From Desulfocapsa sp. (GTDB lineage Bacteria > Desulfobacterota > Desulfobulbia > Desulfobulbales > Desulfocapsaceae), in NCBI GenBank assembly GCA_013792135.1, contig VMSP01000006.1:1-64000 (forward strand): a stretch of 64,000 nt of DNA, read 5' to 3'. The translations under genes and the position numbers were made by a program. The notes under the pieces were generated by a model. That model had not been told where the DNA came from. It ran no database searches and worked only from the letters and a program-made list of their open reading frames with translations. Of the stretch, positions 18,989 through 27,630 are shown piece after piece (the first letter of the stretch is position 1; each line of letters opens with the position of its first letter).

Positions 18989-19387
18989 TCAGTGGCTTTC
19001 TTTCTCGATATCACGATGATGGTGACTGACGGGAAAGGCTTCGTTTTTCAGAAGGGCGGCAAGGGCTTCAGTGACGGCCACAGAACGATGATGGCCTCCG
19101 GTGCAACCGATTGCGATGCGTAGTTCCTTTTTTCCGCTTTGCTGGTGGGCGGTCGCGAAAAAGCTGATGATTCGGTGCAGATGGCGCAGACAGTCGCTGC
19201 CCGACTGATTCCGGAGGACATAGTCAGCGATGGAGGATTTAAGCCCGGTAAAGGCGTGCAGGGTGTCGACGTGGTAGGGGTTGGCAAGAAAACGGACATC
19301 AAAGAGCAGATTCACATCCTGCGGCAGCCCGTATTTATAGCCAAAAGAGAAAATGGTGATGGTAAAGGAAGGCTCCACCACTGTCAA
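18989..19387 (-). CDS. Standalone RapZ C-terminal-like protein
   Basis: The product of about 132 residues matches only the C-terminal domain of RapZ (YvcJ): ITIFSFGYKYGLPQDVNLL, DVRFLANPYHV and IGCTGGHHRSVAVTEAL. Full RapZ has an N-terminal Walker-type ATPase domain of about 150 residues that is absent here. In E. coli the C-terminal domain binds small RNAs and GlcN6P, so an RNA- or sugar-phosphate-binding role is possible. The start is uncertain: TTG 19387 overlaps the phosphoribosyltransferase stop as TTGA, and GTG 19381 or 19378 also fit. Coupled translation with the preceding gene is likely. Confidence 0.75.
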   Translation of the reverse strand: MTVVEPSFTITIFSFGYKYGLPQDVNLLFDVRFLANPYHVDTLHAFTGLKSSIADYVLRNQSGSDCLRHLHRIISFFATAHQQSGKKELRIAIGCTGGHHRSVAVTEALAALLKNEAFPVSHHHRDIEKESH

Positions 19388-19953
19388 GGTGCTGCCCCCA
19401 GGATCTGATCTCGGGTGAAGATGACCTTGACCGGACAATTGTCCATCTGGTTGAGGGTGACGAATTTCATGATGTTTTCCACCCCGTTGCCGTCGAGGCT
19501 GTCGATGACGATGATAATCTTGACGATATAGGCTCCGAACTGGATGATTTCTTCAAGAGCCCTGATAAGCTGACTGCCTGTGGAGACGACATCGCCGACC
19601 AGAGCCACCCGATCTCCCGCCATGATCCGTGACTCAAGCCACTTTGGATTCAGAATGTCACCCTCCTTGCGCATGGAGTCGCGTATGTAAAAGACACCAA
19701 TCTCTTTGAGAAAGGCAGCCCGGCAGAGCACGGAAAGGATGGCATGACCCGGACCGCCCAAGGCACAAATGTTAAGGTCCTTGATTTCGTCATAGACCAG
19801 CTCACCGGCCAGTTTGATGCCCTGATGTTTCAGGGATATTTGGAAAAAATCAAAGTAGTCGCCAACGATTTTAGACGGTGTGCGAAAATGCCCTTCTTGC
19901 TTATAGGCCCTTTCGGCAATGAGTGTATTTAATTCCTCCCAGACGGTAGACAT
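19384..19953 (-). CDS. Orotate phosphoribosyltransferase-like protein
   Basis: The 189-residue protein has the PRPP-binding loop VALVGDVVSTGSQLIRALEE and a GGPGHAILSVLCRAAF segment like the OPRTase ribose-binding region, with FYIRDSMRKEGD in the place of the lysine-bearing hood (VRKxxK). It transfers or removes phosphoribosyl groups; the substrate base is uncertain because several residues differ from PyrE. It overlaps the RapZ-C gene and probably forms a two-gene operon with it. Confidence 0.75.
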   Translation of the reverse strand: MSTVWEELNTLIAERAYKQEGHFRTPSKIVGDYFDFFQISLKHQGIKLAGELVYDEIKDLNICALGGPGHAILSVLCRAAFLKEIGVFYIRDSMRKEGDILNPKWLESRIMAGDRVALVGDVVSTGSQLIRALEEIIQFGAYIVKIIIVIDSLDGNGVENIMKFVTLNQMDNCPVKVIFTRDQILGAAP

Positions 19954-21658: not shown

Positions 21659-22412
21659 CTAAAAAAGCAAGGCGGCACACGTCAGAGAAACATATTGATT
21701 GAATGGTAACCCGAACTTCCTGCAAATAAATCGGCTCAGCGGTTTGTCCACAGAGGAAATCTCCTTTTTCCTCTTGACTTTACTTATCATAGATGACCCT
21801 GTTTTTTCAGGAATGGATGTTAGAAACTGTTCTCTCAGCCCGCAGTGCAGGTACAGATGGCGGCGCAGGAAGAGCCAGAGGCATAACGCGCAACTACCGG
21901 AGATGAGGGCAAGGATGCCGATGTAGCGGATTTTGTCCGGCCAGTCCAGCGATACCGCAGCCATGCTCAGGGCGCCGCAGAGAAAGTAAGAAAAGAACAT
22001 GATCGAAGAGGCGGTGCCCGCGTCCTTGTGCCCCTGTTCCAAGATCAGGTTGCTGGAGGGGGGCCGACTCATCCCCAGGAAAAAGGTGATGATACCATGG
22101 GCAGGGCAAAGCGCAGGGGTCCGTTGATCATGGGAGAAAGCAGGCCGATAATCAGAGGCGGCTGCGGCCAAAGCGGTCGGAGAGTGGGCCGTAGATCAGC
22201 AGTGAGCCACAGTAGGCGACAAAAAAGAGAACCAGGGTCAGGTTGACGATGGCCAAGGGGAGTTGCCAGGTTTCCACCAGGTGGGGAATGGCCGGCAGGT
22301 ACATGACTGTGGCCAATGGTGGAAAGGCGGAAAGCAGGGCCGGAAGCAGGATAAAAAGGAACATTGCGCCGCCATCGGGTCGATAGGGTGCATAATCAGG
22401 TGTGGGCGGCAC
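21659..22412 (-). pseudogene. Bcr/CflA-type MFS transporter, internally deleted
   Basis: The 5' part (22412-22152) encodes the first two helices and the MFS motif LIYGPLSDRFGRSRL. The rest of the N-terminal half and much of the C-terminal half are missing. The 3' part (to 21659) resumes with FFLGMSRPPSSNLILEQ and DAGTASSIMFFSYFLCGALS, typical of the last helices of Bcr/CflA drug exporters. Around 22090-22160 another frame reads LLSPMINGPLRFALPM, so the junction also contains a frameshift. About 200 or more residues are lost compared with a ~400-residue transporter. It is not functional. Confidence 0.8.
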
Positions 22413-22738: not shown

Positions 22739-24172
22739 TTATGGCGAAAAGGTAGTATCTGTTAGGTCCACATCTCCCTTTACCAGAGTGATGACAGTGA
22801 TCTCTCCCGGGCAGTTGAAGCGCAGGGGGATGCTGGAGGCGCCGGCGCCGCGGCTCGTATAGCCCTGCATCGACCGGTATTGCCAGTGGCCGGATGCGGT
22901 GAAGCGGGGTGCCCTGGAGTTGGTGAAGATGGGTCCGCATTTTATTGTGTCGGGCAGGCAGATCTGGCCGCCGTGGGTGTGGCCGCAGAGGTAAAGATCG
23001 GCGTTGCATTGTGCTGCTTCCCGGTAGGACTCCGGGGAATGGGCGAGGAAGATGGTGAAGCATTGGGCCGGGACATCGCGGAAGGCCTCTTCGGCATTGG
23101 CCATCTTGTAATAATGGGGGTCGTCGACGCCGACGATCAAGATCTTCCCGCCGTTTCTCTCAATCGGCCATGATTCATTGATCAGCATGATCAGGCCGGC
23201 CTCCTCGAAATCCGGAGCCATTTCCAGACAATCATGATTGCCGAGGACGCCGAGGAGGCCATGGCGGGTGCGGACATGGGGCAGGAGGCGGCGCAGATGT
23301 CGAAGACAGGGGGCAATGGGTCCGTAGGTCTGCATCCGAATATCCCCGCCAATCAGACAAAGATCGACCTCAATGTCCTGCAGGTGAGTAATGAGGCTAT
23401 CGGTCAGGCCATCGAGTCCGTCCAAGTGGAGATCCGTCAACAGGAGGATGCGAAACTGGTCAAAGGCGTCAGGCAGTGAGGGGAAGAAGAATGTTTTTTT
23501 CACCACCTCTATCTTGAGGGCATTACGGGTACCTTTTTCATACAGGCCGGTTACCTTAAACAGCGGAGCAAGAATAACCAGATCTGCAAGAACGCTGGTC
23601 AGATTGAACAGGGCCTGCCATCTGGCCAGAGGGAAATGGCAGGCTCTCCATTCACGCAGACGAACCGTTGAACGGACCTGGCGCGGATAATTTTCCAGCG
23701 GTGGTCGGTACATGATAAAATACCAGAAACGGGAACTCCAATAGGCGATGATGATAAACAAAATCTGAATTACCGCAATCTGTTCCCAGCTAAGATCCAG
23801 AACATGGGTAAGGAACAAGGCGGGGAAAAGGGATTCAAAGAGTTGATCAAGGATGACGATCTCGGTACCGCTTTTCAGGGTCCGGCGACGTTTAATAAAG
23901 CTGGATAGGAGGTCGCCGCTCATGGCCAGTAAGGCGGTAAGAGCTCCAACCCACCATGCAATGCCGATCAGGGGGGTGACCATGATTCCCCCCAGCAGGC
24001 TGGAGAGGATGCCGCGGATAGTCTTGTGCGGACCGAAGATGGGTTGCTGGTCTCGCCATACTCTACCGCCATCGAGCGGCATATTCCAACGGTCGCCAAA
24101 GAACATGCTGATAAGGGGCGGAAGTGCGTTGATCCACAGGAGATAAAGAGCAATAGTGGCCGCCACAATCAT
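22739..24172 (-). CDS. Fusion: CarS-like CDP-lipid synthase + metallophosphoesterase
   Basis: Residues about 1-165 form a membrane domain with ISMFFGDRWNMPLDGG, PIFGPHKTIRGILSSLLGG and SGDLLSSFIKRR, the signature of the CarS-like (CDP-archaeol synthase, PF01864) family, which uses CTP to activate a lipid. Residues about 235-477 are a calcineurin-type phosphoesterase (YkuE-like): LLLTDLHLDG, LIGGDIRM, GVLGNHDC, FLAHSPES and LCGHTHGGQ, all metal ligands present. The fusion would face the membrane with both activities. It is the last gene after sppA, a Gate-domain protein and a CDP-alcohol transferase on the same strand. I infer a phospholipid role, with the phosphoesterase possibly removing a terminal phosphate such as that of PGP. 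Confidence 0.75.
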   Translation of the reverse strand: MIVAATIALYLLWINALPPLISMFFGDRWNMPLDGGRVWRDQQPIFGPHKTIRGILSSLLGGIMVTPLIGIAWWVGALTALLAMSGDLLSSFIKRRRTLKSGTEIVILDQLFESLFPALFLTHVLDLSWEQIAVIQILFIIIAYWSSRFWYFIMYRPPLENYPRQVRSTVRLREWRACHFPLARWQALFNLTSVLADLVILAPLFKVTGLYEKGTRNALKIEVVKKTFFFPSLPDAFDQFRILLLTDLHLDGLDGLTDSLITHLQDIEVDLCLIGGDIRMQTYGPIAPCLRHLRRLLPHVRTRHGLLGVLGNHDCLEMAPDFEEAGLIMLINESWPIERNGGKILIVGVDDPHYYKMANAEEAFRDVPAQCFTIFLAHSPESYREAAQCNADLYLCGHTHGGQICLPDTIKCGPIFTNSRAPRFTASGHWQYRSMQGYTSRGAGASSIPLRFNCPGEITVITLVKGDVDLTDTTFSP

Positions 24173-24210
24173 TGTATTTTTCCTTCTATTGTGCAGTCAA
24201 AAAAGCAGGC

Positions 24211-24762
24211 TTAGCGAGTGGATGACTCTTTATCTCTCTGCTGCCGGCGGAGTGCCTGATAAAAAAGCAGACCGTAATCACCGGCAGCAATGAGGCTGCA
24301 GGACACGGTGACAAAGAGGGCAACCGGGGTCATCCCTGGAAAAAGGACCACCGTGAGCAGCAGGATAAATTGTCCCGCTGTGGCCAGCTTACCTGACCAC
24401 CTGGCCCCCATCTCGCGGAAGGAATCCCAGGATCGGATTGTTGCCGCATATCCGGCGGCAATCCCAACGGTCAGATCGCGGGCAATCACTGCCGGAATCC
24501 ACCAGATCGGGAATTTTCCGGTCATGGCAAAGGTGATCAGGGCAGCGAGCATGAACATTTTGTCAGCAACGGCATCCAGCAGGCCTCCCTGCCAGCTTGA
24601 TACCTTCCAGCGTCTGGCGCACCAGCCGTCAAGAAAATCACTGGCCCCGCTGCCCAGAATAAGCCAGACCCACAGTTCTTCGGGACAGAAAGGAAAGAGA
24701 CAGGCCAGACCCAGGCGCAAGGCGGATAAGATATTGGGAATAAGGGCCAGATATCGTTTCAT
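24211..24762 (-). CDS. CDP-alcohol phosphatidyltransferase
   Basis: The membrane protein of about 183 residues has the family motif SDFLDGWCARRWKVSSWQGG followed by LLDAVADK, that is Dx2DGx2ARx8Gx3Dx3D with all aspartates. It transfers a phosphatidyl (or other CDP-linked lipid) group to an alcohol, often glycerol-3-phosphate. ATG 24762 is preferred; TTG 24783 would overlap the upstream gene. It sits between the Gate-domain gene and the CarS-like fusion, suggesting a linked pathway. PgsA is one candidate, but the acceptor cannot be told. Confidence 0.8.
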   Translation of the reverse strand: MKRYLALIPNILSALRLGLACLFPFCPEELWVWLILGSGASDFLDGWCARRWKVSSWQGGLLDAVADKMFMLAALITFAMTGKFPIWWIPAVIARDLTVGIAAGYAATIRSWDSFREMGARWSGKLATAGQFILLLTVVLFPGMTPVALFVTVSCSLIAAGDYGLLFYQALRRQQRDKESSTR

Positions 24763-24769
24763 GTCGGAA

Positions 24770-25741
24770 TTACGATACGACAAAGTAGATAGCTCCCATG
24801 ATGATAAGGCTGCCGATACGGAATATCTGGTTGTAAAAAATTAATTCAGCGGCCACCTTTGGTTTAAAAATTCCTGCATAATAGGGGAATTGATGACGGA
24901 TGGCGCGGATAGGGGAAGAAAGAATGTTACCGACCAGGAGGGCAAGGATGATTTCCCGATAGGTCATGCTTCCCGCCTGGAGCAGAGCTCCGGCTGCGGC
25001 CAGGCCGGCGGTGAATTCAGCGGCAATCTGCAGGGTGATAATCCCCATGGATTCAGGGGTGAGCCAGGAGAGGAAAGAAAAGTAGGTGGCCATCGTTTTT
25101 TCCATGGTGGTGAAGATTCCCGCCTTGTGGAGCCAGAAGATGATGATGTAGATGGGGATGGTAAAGCGGATGATCGTGCGGATACGTTTTTTAAAGCGGA
25201 TCCAGCTTTTTTTGACAATGGCGTTCCATCCGCCTCCTGCCTCTTTAGGACCTTCCACCTGCATGCTTTCGGTTCGTTCCTGCCTTGGGAGGATAAAACG
25301 GCTGATAAGAAGGATAGAAAGGGTGCGGAGGATGGCTGCGCCAAAGGTGAGGCCGACATAGATGAAGGCCGCTCCCTTGATCATTGGTACGGCGATGAAG
25401 GAGACAGTGGGGAGATGGAGAAAATAAGTGGGCAGGGAGTTGAACAGGTTGGCCAGGATCAGTTCTTTCTTCGAGATTTTCTCCTGCTCGTAGGCCTCGG
25501 AGAGCATGGTGTTGGCGCTGATGCCGGAAAAAAGCGCCATGGTGAAGGAGGCGCTGGCGATATCTGAGAGGTTTCCCAGGCGCAACAGGGGACGGGCCAG
25601 GGTGGCAACCTTACTGGTCCAGTTCAGTGACTCGATCACGTTGGCAACAAAAAGGCCAATCGAAATATAGCCAAGCATTCGCAACAGCGGCCAGAACAGG
25701 TCATGCCAGAGAGTGAGGAGGGTATCAGCCGAAAAGGACAT
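24770..25741 (-). CDS. Nucleoside-recognition (Gate) domain membrane protein
   Basis: The 323-residue protein has about eight hydrophobic segments and the Gate-domain feature FTMALFSGISANTMLSEAY in the first half, plus AAEFTAGLAAAGALLQAG in the second. Similar domains occur in SpmA/B, FeoB and nucleoside transporters. Its role is unknown. It lies 23 bases downstream of sppA and just upstream of the CDP-alcohol transferase on the same strand, so it is part of that operon. Confidence 0.75.
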   Translation of the reverse strand: MSFSADTLLTLWHDLFWPLLRMLGYISIGLFVANVIESLNWTSKVATLARPLLRLGNLSDIASASFTMALFSGISANTMLSEAYEQEKISKKELILANLFNSLPTYFLHLPTVSFIAVPMIKGAAFIYVGLTFGAAILRTLSILLISRFILPRQERTESMQVEGPKEAGGGWNAIVKKSWIRFKKRIRTIIRFTIPIYIIIFWLHKAGIFTTMEKTMATYFSFLSWLTPESMGIITLQIAAEFTAGLAAAGALLQAGSMTYREIILALLVGNILSSPIRAIRHQFPYYAGIFKPKVAAELIFYNQIFRIGSLIIMGAIYFVVS

Positions 25742-25764: not shown

Positions 25765-27630
25765 TTAAGGTTCAAGAATCGATGGGCCTTGAATCAGCGA
25801 ATGGGCGTAGAGACCTGCCGGATCGTTGAAGAGTAGGAGCTCCCTGAATGGCGCGGTCAGTTGAGCTATCTGTTGCACCAAAGGCCGTGACATCGTTTGG
25901 CGCAACAGGGTGGTTACGACCTGACCATTGAAGATGCCCCGTATTTCATCCAGAAAGCTGCGTGGCTTTTCAATGTAGATTGCTGAGTAATTTTCAATTT
26001 TTGCCATTTGGGCTGCAGACTTGATGGCGTCTTCCAGAGTTCCTATCTTATCCACCAGACCAAGTTGCTGTGCCTCTTTTCCATGAAAGACACGTCCTCC
26101 GGCAACGGTCTGGACTTTTTCCATATCCATCCGGCGTCCTTTTGCCACCAGGGAGAGAAACTGCTGGTAGCCATGCTCGAGAGTCATCTGGACAGCTACC
26201 TCCAAGGGCGGACTCAAAGGCCGGCTTAAGTTAAGGCCGGATGCCAGCGGGGTGGTGCCGAACCCATCACTGTGAATGCCAAGGCTTGCCAGACTGTTTT
26301 CAAAGGTGGGGAAGGCTGCGAAGATGCCGATGGATCCGGTGATGGTGGCGGTTGATGCCCATATCTCATCAGCATTTGCAGCAATCCAGTATCCGCCGGA
26401 GGCGGCAGTGGAACCCATGGATACCACCAGGGGTTTGGCACTTTTTTTCAGTTCAAGGATCTCCTGACGAATGATCTCTGAGGCAAAGGCCGAGCCGCCC
26501 CCTGAGTTGATGCGCAGCGCCACTGCCTTGACCTTTGGGTCAAGGCGGGCCTTGCGGAGACTCGCGGCCAGGGTGTCGCCGCCAATGGTGCCCATTGGTT
26601 GTTTGCCATCGAGGATCATGCCCTCGGCTATAATGACCCCGATGGTGTTGTCAGGTGTAATCAGTGGCGGTTCATAGGAAGGGGTGATGGTGCGCAGATA
26701 ATTATTTAAACTGATCTGGCTGAAACCATGGTCAGGAGCAGCCGCAGTCTGTTTTCCCAGATAATTGCGAAGCTCTTCCCTGGTTTTAAGACCATCCACC
26801 AGTTTGTTCTCCATGGCCAATTGTGCGGTACTGCCTCCAGATGCCGCCAGTTTCGTGGTAATGTTGTTGGTATATTGATCGATAGCGTCAGCAGGAAGTG
26901 AACGTTGTCTGGTGATGTCTGTCGTGAAAATCGACCATAGAGAGGTGAGCAACCCTCGCATTTGTTCTTTGGCCTCCTCTGACATGGAGTCTCGCAGGAT
27001 GGGTTCGACGGCCGATTTGTAGGTGCCGACACGGAAGACGTGATAATTAATCTGTAATTTCTCCAGGGCTTCCCGGAAGAAGAGCGGATAGGAACCAAGG
27101 CCGTGGAGATCAACGCCGCCCATGGGGTTCAGGTAGATTTCCGAGGCAAAGGAGGCCAGATAATAAGCCTTCTGCCGGTAGTAATCTTCGGCGGCAATGA
27201 CTTTTTTACCGCTTTTTTTGAACTCGTTCAGGGACTCTCCGATGGTCTGCATCTGGTCGAGCCCAACCGTCCCCAGATCATTAAGGTCAAGGAGGATGCA
27301 TTTAATCTGGCTGTCGGTGGCCGCGTGATGGATAGCGTCGAGAACATCCTGGAGCAGGGTCTCAGAGGTCGTCTCCTTGCTTTGAGTGAGCTCACTCAGC
27401 AGCTCCGTTATCGGGTCTCTGGACTGTTTCTCTTCTACGATATTACCGGCCAGAGAGAGGATAAGCGCAGCGTCCTTAATAACAGGCGGCTTTTTTTCAA
27501 AGAGAAACGTGGTGAAAATCACCACTATGAACAACAGAAAGAGAAGATTACCCAGGATGCTTCGGGTGGTGGAAAGAAATTTCCCTATCCAGCGGAAGAA
27601 GGTTGTGAGAGCAGCAAAGATGTTTTTCAT
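25765..27630 (-). CDS. sppA: Signal peptide peptidase SppA, 67-kDa type
   Basis: The 621-residue protein has an N-terminal membrane helix (ILGNLLFLLFIVVIFTTFLF) and two ClpP-like halves. The N-half carries the catalytic lysine in YYRQKAYYLASFAS; the C-half carries the nucleophile serine in GSTAASGGYWIAANADEI and the GSIGIFA loop. Length matches the long, E. coli-like SppA. It degrades cleaved signal peptides in the membrane. It heads an operon with the Gate-domain, CDP-alcohol transferase and CarS-like genes. Confidence 0.92.
   Translation of the reverse strand: MKNIFAALTTFFRWIGKFLSTTRSILGNLLFLLFIVVIFTTFLFEKKPPVIKDAALILSLAGNIVEEKQSRDPITELLSELTQSKETTSETLLQDVLDAIHHAATDSQIKCILLDLNDLGTVGLDQMQTIGESLNEFKKSGKKVIAAEDYYRQKAYYLASFASEIYLNPMGGVDLHGLGSYPLFFREALEKLQINYHVFRVGTYKSAVEPILRDSMSEEAKEQMRGLLTSLWSIFTTDITRQRSLPADAIDQYTNNITTKLAASGGSTAQLAMENKLVDGLKTREELRNYLGKQTAAAPDHGFSQISLNNYLRTITPSYEPPLITPDNTIGVIIAEGMILDGKQPMGTIGGDTLAASLRKARLDPKVKAVALRINSGGGSAFASEIIRQEILELKKSAKPLVVSMGSTAASGGYWIAANADEIWASTATITGSIGIFAAFPTFENSLASLGIHSDGFGTTPLASGLNLSRPLSPPLEVAVQMTLEHGYQQFLSLVAKGRRMDMEKVQTVAGGRVFHGKEAQQLGLVDKIGTLEDAIKSAAQMAKIENYSAIYIEKPRSFLDEIRGIFNGQVVTTLLRQTMSRPLVQQIAQLTAPFRELLLFNDPAGLYAHSLIQGPSILEP

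Follow-up and report, generated by a model that had tools for sequence, protein, structure and literature searches.

A CarS-like/metallophosphoesterase fusion with a linked CDP-alcohol phosphatidyltransferase in Desulfobacterota: candidates for a second CDP-lipid branch

A fused cytidylyltransferase–phosphoesterase gene next to a CDP-alcohol transferase

We analysed a stretch of 64,000 nucleotides from Desulfocapsa sp. (assembly GCA_013792135.1, contig VMSP01000006.1, positions 1 to 64,000; hereafter the window), in which two adjacent genes combine three putative lipid-metabolic domains. The larger gene (22739..24172 (-), 1434 bp) encodes a fusion protein of 477 amino acids (aa) that carries PF01864 and PF00149 in a single frame free of internal stops. 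It consists of a CarS-like CTP:lipid cytidylyltransferase domain with five transmembrane (TM) helices and the motifs FGxHKTxRG, GDxxSSFxKRR and LDQxxE (residues 1-165; 23678..24172 (-)), a conserved linker predicted to be helical and basic (residues ~166-239; 23456..23677 (-)), and a calcineurin-type metallophosphoesterase (MPE) domain with invariant ligands (residues 240-477; 22739..23455 (-)). The smaller gene (24211..24783 (-), 573 bp) encodes a CDP-alcohol phosphatidyltransferase of 190 aa, referred to as P2. The original prediction had described this arrangement, and its coordinates and domain assignments were confirmed.

The CarS-like domain was recognised at residues 17-142 (39.7 bits, Pfam cut-off 22). 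An AlphaFold2 model of the fusion (mean predicted local distance difference test score 83.9, predicted template modelling score 0.77) places five long helices at residues 2-25, 52-69, 73-96, 108-125 and 129-155, followed by the helical linker and a phosphoesterase fold, and the crystal-structure entry of Aeropyrum pernix CarS (5GUF) matched this model with a Z score of 16.7 and a root-mean-square deviation of 2.2 over 143 aligned of 158 residues. Alignment of 27 whole-length fusions, whose other members are 42-86% identical to the protein of the window, revealed 76 invariant columns including both active sites; in the CarS part, these comprise D34, K50, T51, R53, G86, D87, S91, K94, R95, R96, D109, Q110 and E113.

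The last of these positions belong to a motif that divides the CarS family. DQxxE is present in 28/28 aligned fusions, in 12 of the 13 short stand-alone CarS relatives (DHxxE in one) and in both alphaproteobacterial proteins introduced below, whereas DQxD is found in 5GUF and in all four archaeal-like CarS proteins of Desulfobacterota (L080-L082, L087). Judged by these sequences, the DQxxE proteins are a separate bacterial CarS type. The fusion also scored 66.7 bits on the equivalog model of archaeal CDP-archaeol synthase (NF003114), below its cut-off of 148.

For the MPE domain, PF00149 was matched at residues 240-401 (39.9 bits, cut-off 21.5), and the metal-binding motifs DxH, GD, GNHD, H and GHTH are present. 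The expected ligands (D247, H249, D277, N312, H313, H378, H398 and H400) are invariant in 27/27 fusions. When the fusion model was compared with solved structures, its MPE part matched Mre11, GpdQ and Rv0805 at Z scores of 13-15; the high rank of Mre11/SbcD was taken as common fold only. The nearest curated models are YaeI (NF008460, 84.5 bits, cut-off 188) and LpxG (NF033458, 60.2 bits, cut-off 350).

According to the positive-inside rule, basic segments mark the cytoplasmic side of membrane proteins. Residues 156-190 of the 27 fusions contain on average 7.3 lysines and arginines versus 1.9 aspartates and glutamates; this basic tail follows helix 5, and the two short loops on the opposite side are nearly uncharged. 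Applied to the tail, the rule would place the active-site loops of CarS and the phosphoesterase both on the cytoplasmic side. A linker-like segment is likewise carried by stand-alone relatives of the MPE domain, namely L062 and the alphaproteobacterial MPEs.

Spread and descent of the fusion

A sequence scan of genome contigs returned 11 fusion loci, mostly titled Desulfobulbaceae. At the level of the phylum, a full-length fusion was found in 14/297 genomes (the query matched 202, mostly single-domain phosphoesterases). PF01864 was matched in 70/395 phylum genomes, many of the matches being CdsA-sized frames; frames of 446-792 aa occurred in 22 genomes, for 19 of which both domains were shown by alignment, while for G316, G334 and G352 the fusion status was assigned from frame length alone. 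Within the same order, 42 of 116 genomes matched the fusion (E<=1e-30), including partial matches in G409, G425, G458 and G490. In G480, the CarS and MPE parts lie in two overlapping frames (C90:17124-18478), either because the gene is split or because the assembly is wrong at this point. A search across Desulfobacterota had been proposed together with the original prediction, and these counts show that the fusion is not confined to the window.

A chance origin of the fusion is excluded by its conservation across phylum and order together with the 76 invariant columns. In a tree of the CarS part, the 28 fusions form one clade (support 100/100) that leaves out the short CarS proteins. The two principal groups return in the tree of the MPE part (support 82-92), although its outside rows are long-branched. 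As far as these trees can tell, a single fusion event followed by joint descent of both domains is the simplest reading. Three genomes (G290, G270 and G365) each possess two CarS-like genes of different types. Among plasmids, the fusion matched 153 records, none of which covered 80% of its length.

P2 and its linkage to the fusion

P2 matches the CDP-OH_P_transf family (PF01066) with 75.4 bits and has the complete motif DxxDGxxAR(x8)GxxxDxxxD (DFLDGWCARRWKVSSWQGGLLDAVAD). On the PgsA equivalog model TIGR00560 it reached 69 bits (cut-off 109.1), compared with 150.3 bits for the genome's own PgsA (L045), which served as a positive control. The two proteins share 29% identity, and the single sequence match of P2 in the PDB is PgsA of Staphylococcus aureus (7drj). 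On sequence grounds, P2 is best regarded as a subfamily distinct from the PgsA of the same genome.

P2 was detected in 22/116 genomes of the order (E<=1e-50; the next best match was 1e-15). Both genes occur in 17 of these 116 genomes, P2 only in 5, the fusion only in 25 and neither in 69, corresponding to a Fisher p of 2.9e-5 by genome; by genus, the fusion is present in 8/10 genera with P2 versus 11/40 others (p 0.0037). Both p-values are too optimistic, since related genomes share descent and are not independent. Physical linkage is the stronger evidence: in 14 of the 17 co-carriers, belonging to five genera, the fusion and P2 are found side by side in the same orientation, and in the other three they are on different contigs. 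The order of the 14 linked pairs varies, with P2 first in eight and the fusion first in six (one with a gap of 877 bp).

Upstream of the fusion and on the same strand come P2 and, further upstream, genes for a Gate (nucleoside recognition) protein (24770..25741 (-); PF07670, 34 bits), whose frame overlaps that of P2 by 14 bases, and for SppA of the 67K type (25765..27630 (-); TIGR00705, 555 bits). The original prediction had pointed to the common orientation of these two genes, which holds for the window, but the neighbourhood is restricted to the genus. Gate adjoins P2 in 6/6 other loci of the window's own genus and in 0/7 loci with fusion and P2 outside it, where the stretches L141, L142 and L175 are short on one P2 side. 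Gate and SppA are thus neighbours within the genus only, and their membership in the module was rejected because they accompany the fusion–P2 pair in this genus alone. A fixed wider operon was rejected as well, since the ten neighbours scanned around fusions in other genomes vary by genome: a sigma factor, a radical SAM/B12 protein, an aminotransferase, a glycosyltransferase, peptidases M1 and M16, an Na/Ca exchanger, an ABC ATPase, an ion channel and one protein without match.

Two other features of the window deserve mention. Just downstream of the fusion, a transporter of the major facilitator superfamily (21659-22412(-)) is apparently split into two frames (86 + 170 aa), and L002 matches 46 residues of the first piece only. 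Further away, a protein of 149 aa (18989-19438(-)) matches the C-terminal half of RapZ alone (positions 158-278 of 278, under cut-off); its gene overlaps a phosphoribosyltransferase-like gene, and both are kept in L002 and L147.

Other partnerships between CarS and phosphoesterases

Short CarS proteins (~167 aa) were accompanied by a PHP-type phosphoesterase gene on the same strand in 13/13 phylum genomes checked (G290, G029, G101, G249, G066, G228, G129, G270, G205, G181, G310, G384 and G346; loci L066-L074, L085, L086, L092 and L098). The PHP gene adjoins CarS in 12 of them and lies ~1.5 kb off in G228 (L071), and the expected PHP active-site residues are kept in 6/6 aligned proteins. The other flank of the pair is often occupied by RsmG or an MsbA-like ABC transporter. 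For the PHP partner, no close solved relative was found (best 2anu), and a CehA/McbA-like model was matched under its cut-off; no published description of the gene pair was found. Around the four archaeal-like CarS loci checked, neither PHP nor MPE was matched within ~1.5 kb (0/4).

A third arrangement was encountered in Methylobacterium nodulans and Bosea sp. F3-2, each of which has a plasmid where a separate MPE gene lies next to a gene annotated as CDP-archaeol synthase, in convergent orientation. In M. nodulans, a protein of 949 aa combining acyl-AMP ligase, carrier and acyltransferase (PF01553, PlsC-type) is encoded two genes upstream of the MPE, so that the row on pMNOD02 (L177:3522-8302) reads acyl-AMP ligase/carrier/acyltransferase, small hypothetical protein, metallophosphoesterase and CarS; this row is possibly a special phospholipid locus. 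On a Bradyrhizobium plasmid the MPE is present with no CarS match in the stretch, and for the CarS of a Variovorax plasmid (L179), inspection by eye recognised no phosphoesterase among the listed open reading frames. The alphaproteobacterial MPE had no relative among viral contigs.

The canonical lipid enzymes of the same genome

The genome of the window (G000; 4.2 Mb, 99.99% complete) was searched for a separate set of CdsA, PgsA and PgpA, a check put forward with the original prediction. All three were found: CdsA with 191.7 bits, PgsA as given above and PgpA with 148.6 bits, and two more CDP-alcohol transferases exist besides PgsA and P2. PgpA was also present in 36/36 searched genomes, which had been chosen for having CarS. 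Roles of the module as a missing CdsA or as a missing phosphatidylglycerophosphate phosphatase were consequently rejected. LpxI was detected as well (169.3 bits). No PF01884 match for PcrB/GGGPS was obtained in G000, while 7/14 control genomes were positive in the same search; the usual source of digeranylgeranylglyceryl phosphate (DGGGP) is therefore missing.

With the canonical enzymes present, the module represents a second set and not simply the synthesis of phosphatidylglycerol (PG). The sequence of activation, transfer and dephosphorylation that had been predicted by analogy to PG synthesis is partly supported, by domains, motifs and linkage, but the analogy in product is weakened by the PG set already in place. 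Of the suggested ether or otherwise unusual substrates, an archaeal ether lipid is unlikely, and a non-standard phosphatidate is favoured.

A possible second CDP-lipid branch and its alternatives

We suggest that the fusion and P2 may constitute a second, dedicated CDP-lipid branch that acts on a non-standard phosphatidate, a reading that we prefer while considering it somewhat short of probable. The direct observations behind it are the structure and linkage of the genes, their motifs, the predicted fold, the co-occurrence of fusion and P2 and the presence of the canonical set; both domains of the fusion as well as P2 retain their catalytic motifs. Given the intact motifs and fold, the membrane-embedded CarS-like domain would move CMP from CTP onto a phosphatidate-type lipid, most likely a non-standard phosphatidate and not archaeal DGGGP; redundancy with CdsA and the acyltransferase neighbour in M. 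nodulans point to such a substrate. P2 would then swap CMP for a small phosphorylated alcohol, glycerol-3-phosphate being a first guess, and the MPE domain, kept on the cytoplasmic side as part of the fusion protein, would strip the terminal phosphate. The tether between activation and dephosphorylation would thereby unite both ends of the route in one chain, with the transferase as a partner. Where P2 is lacking, the second step would fall to a different CDP-alcohol transferase of the carrier; the sequence data speak for the transfer step only where P2 exists.

Several observations weigh against this proposal. P2 is absent from 25/42 fusion carriers of the order and occurs without the fusion in five genomes, and kinship among genomes inflates the significance of their co-occurrence. 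A CDP-alcohol transferase motif was found near the fusion in 0/13 loci (L049-L061) and in 0/14 loci of the order in which P2 is absent or elsewhere (L161-L174), and near the CarS–PHP pair in 0/9 loci (L066-L074), some of the stretches being short. Four loci of Desulfobacterota (L062-L065) have the MPE with no CarS in the stretch; together with the lone MPE and lone CarS genes on plasmids, they indicate that coupling of CarS to a phosphoesterase is common, not absolute. Furthermore, the change to DQxxE could alter the chemistry of CarS, and calcineurin-type enzymes act on many substrates, including pyrophosphates.

In one alternative, CarS and the phosphoesterase form a two-enzyme unit that sets the level of CDP-lipid or phosphatidate, with the MPE cleaving the pyrophosphate of CDP-lipid, as LpxG does for UDP-diacylglucosamine, or acting on phosphatidate, and with P2 joined in some genomes of the order. 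The pairing of CarS with a phosphoesterase recurs in three forms and the transferase does not, and YaeI and LpxG, both under cut-off, are the nearest curated models; yet a single chain that both built and broke down CDP-lipid would run a futile cycle if it were not regulated, and the linkage of P2 in either gene order speaks for a transfer step in the genomes that have P2. We consider this unit unlikely overall. About equally doubtful is a redundant or differently regulated PG route that uses the usual diacyl phosphatidate and glycerol-3-phosphate and duplicates CdsA, PgsA and PgpA. The chemistry of the set equals that of PG synthesis, and PgsA provides both the best curated model and the PDB match for P2, but the canonical set is in the genome, PgpA was never missing where searched, P2 remains far below the PgsA cut-off with low identity to the genome's own enzyme, and what has been retained is a CarS type and not a CdsA duplicate.

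Two further explanations were rejected as very improbable. In accounts of the lipid divide, CarS is taught as an archaeal enzyme, and it is best known from CDP-archaeol synthesis, so that the PF01864 and 5GUF matches could hint at archaeal-type ether lipids built from isoprenoids and glycerol-1-phosphate; the absence of PcrB/GGGPS from G000, the sub-threshold equivalog score and the replacement of DQxD by DQxxE stand against it. Similarly, the weak resemblance of the MPE to LpxG could suggest a UDP-diacylglucosamine hydrolase of lipid A synthesis, which is contradicted by a score far under the LpxG cut-off and not needed in a genome that encodes LpxI.

Returning to the proposed CDP-lipid branch, a wider and more tentative idea is that bacterial CarS proteins with DQxxE are the sign of a CDP-lipid pathway not described so far, in which the cytidylyltransferase is regularly paired with a phosphoesterase and which makes a non-standard phospholipid in parallel to the CdsA route. 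As part of that idea, the coupling could have been solved in at least three ways: by a fused MPE, a separate adjacent MPE or an adjacent PHP enzyme.

If the proposal is true, many Desulfobacterota would run a second CDP-lipid line beside CdsA. With two genes of 573 and 1434 bp for three activities, the set is compact and suited to heterologous lipidomics, and the MPE becomes a candidate for the enzyme that removes phosphate from lipid head groups. In this context, one article, which covers activity and structure of CarS and its preference for DGGGP over phosphatidate, calls the phosphatase for phosphatidylinositol phosphate unidentified (PMC9385802). CarS was not detected in Cloacimonetes bins according to another report (PMC7852524). 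Sulfate reducers make unusual alkyl ether phospholipids, and the paper describing them derives these lipids from ordinary PG and phosphatidylethanolamine after head-group addition, which as described there would not need a second CDP route (PMC11150832). Our literature search, covering titles and abstract openings with most subscription papers outside its coverage, found no description of a CarS–phosphoesterase fusion.

Comparison with known systems

The CarS part shares PF01864, five TM helices, the KT loop, GDxxxSFxKRR and the DQ motif with A. pernix CarS (5GUF) at 24% identity over the aligned residues, but differs from it in the fused phosphoesterase, in DQxxE for DQxD and in a bacterial host without GGGPS. 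The MPE belongs to the same calcineurin fold class as YaeI and LpxG, the UDP-diacylglucosamine pyrophosphatase of Chlamydia, and has DxH, GNHD and GHTH in common with them, whereas it falls far below both cut-offs, reads GGDxR for GDxxDR and stands in a genome where LpxI already serves lipid A; LpxG is membrane-associated (PMC4807358). Further relatives are the plasmid-borne MPEs of M. nodulans and Bosea sp. F3-2, which are 43.9-46.9% identical including part of the linker and are likewise paired with a DQxxE CarS. This pair is unfused and convergent, belongs to another phylum and has no P2 annotated in the stretch.

Relative to PgsA (S. aureus 7DRJ and the genome's own enzyme), P2 has the complete CDP-alcohol transferase motif but carries LDAVAD where the canonical proteins have LDPLAD. 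It is also without the LR arginine that the canonical sequences show, and five residues are inserted ahead of its GK motif. If our reading is right, the module follows the same order of chemistry as the CdsA–PgsA–PgpA pathway to PG, while it includes no orthologue of the three enzymes, all of which the genome also encodes.

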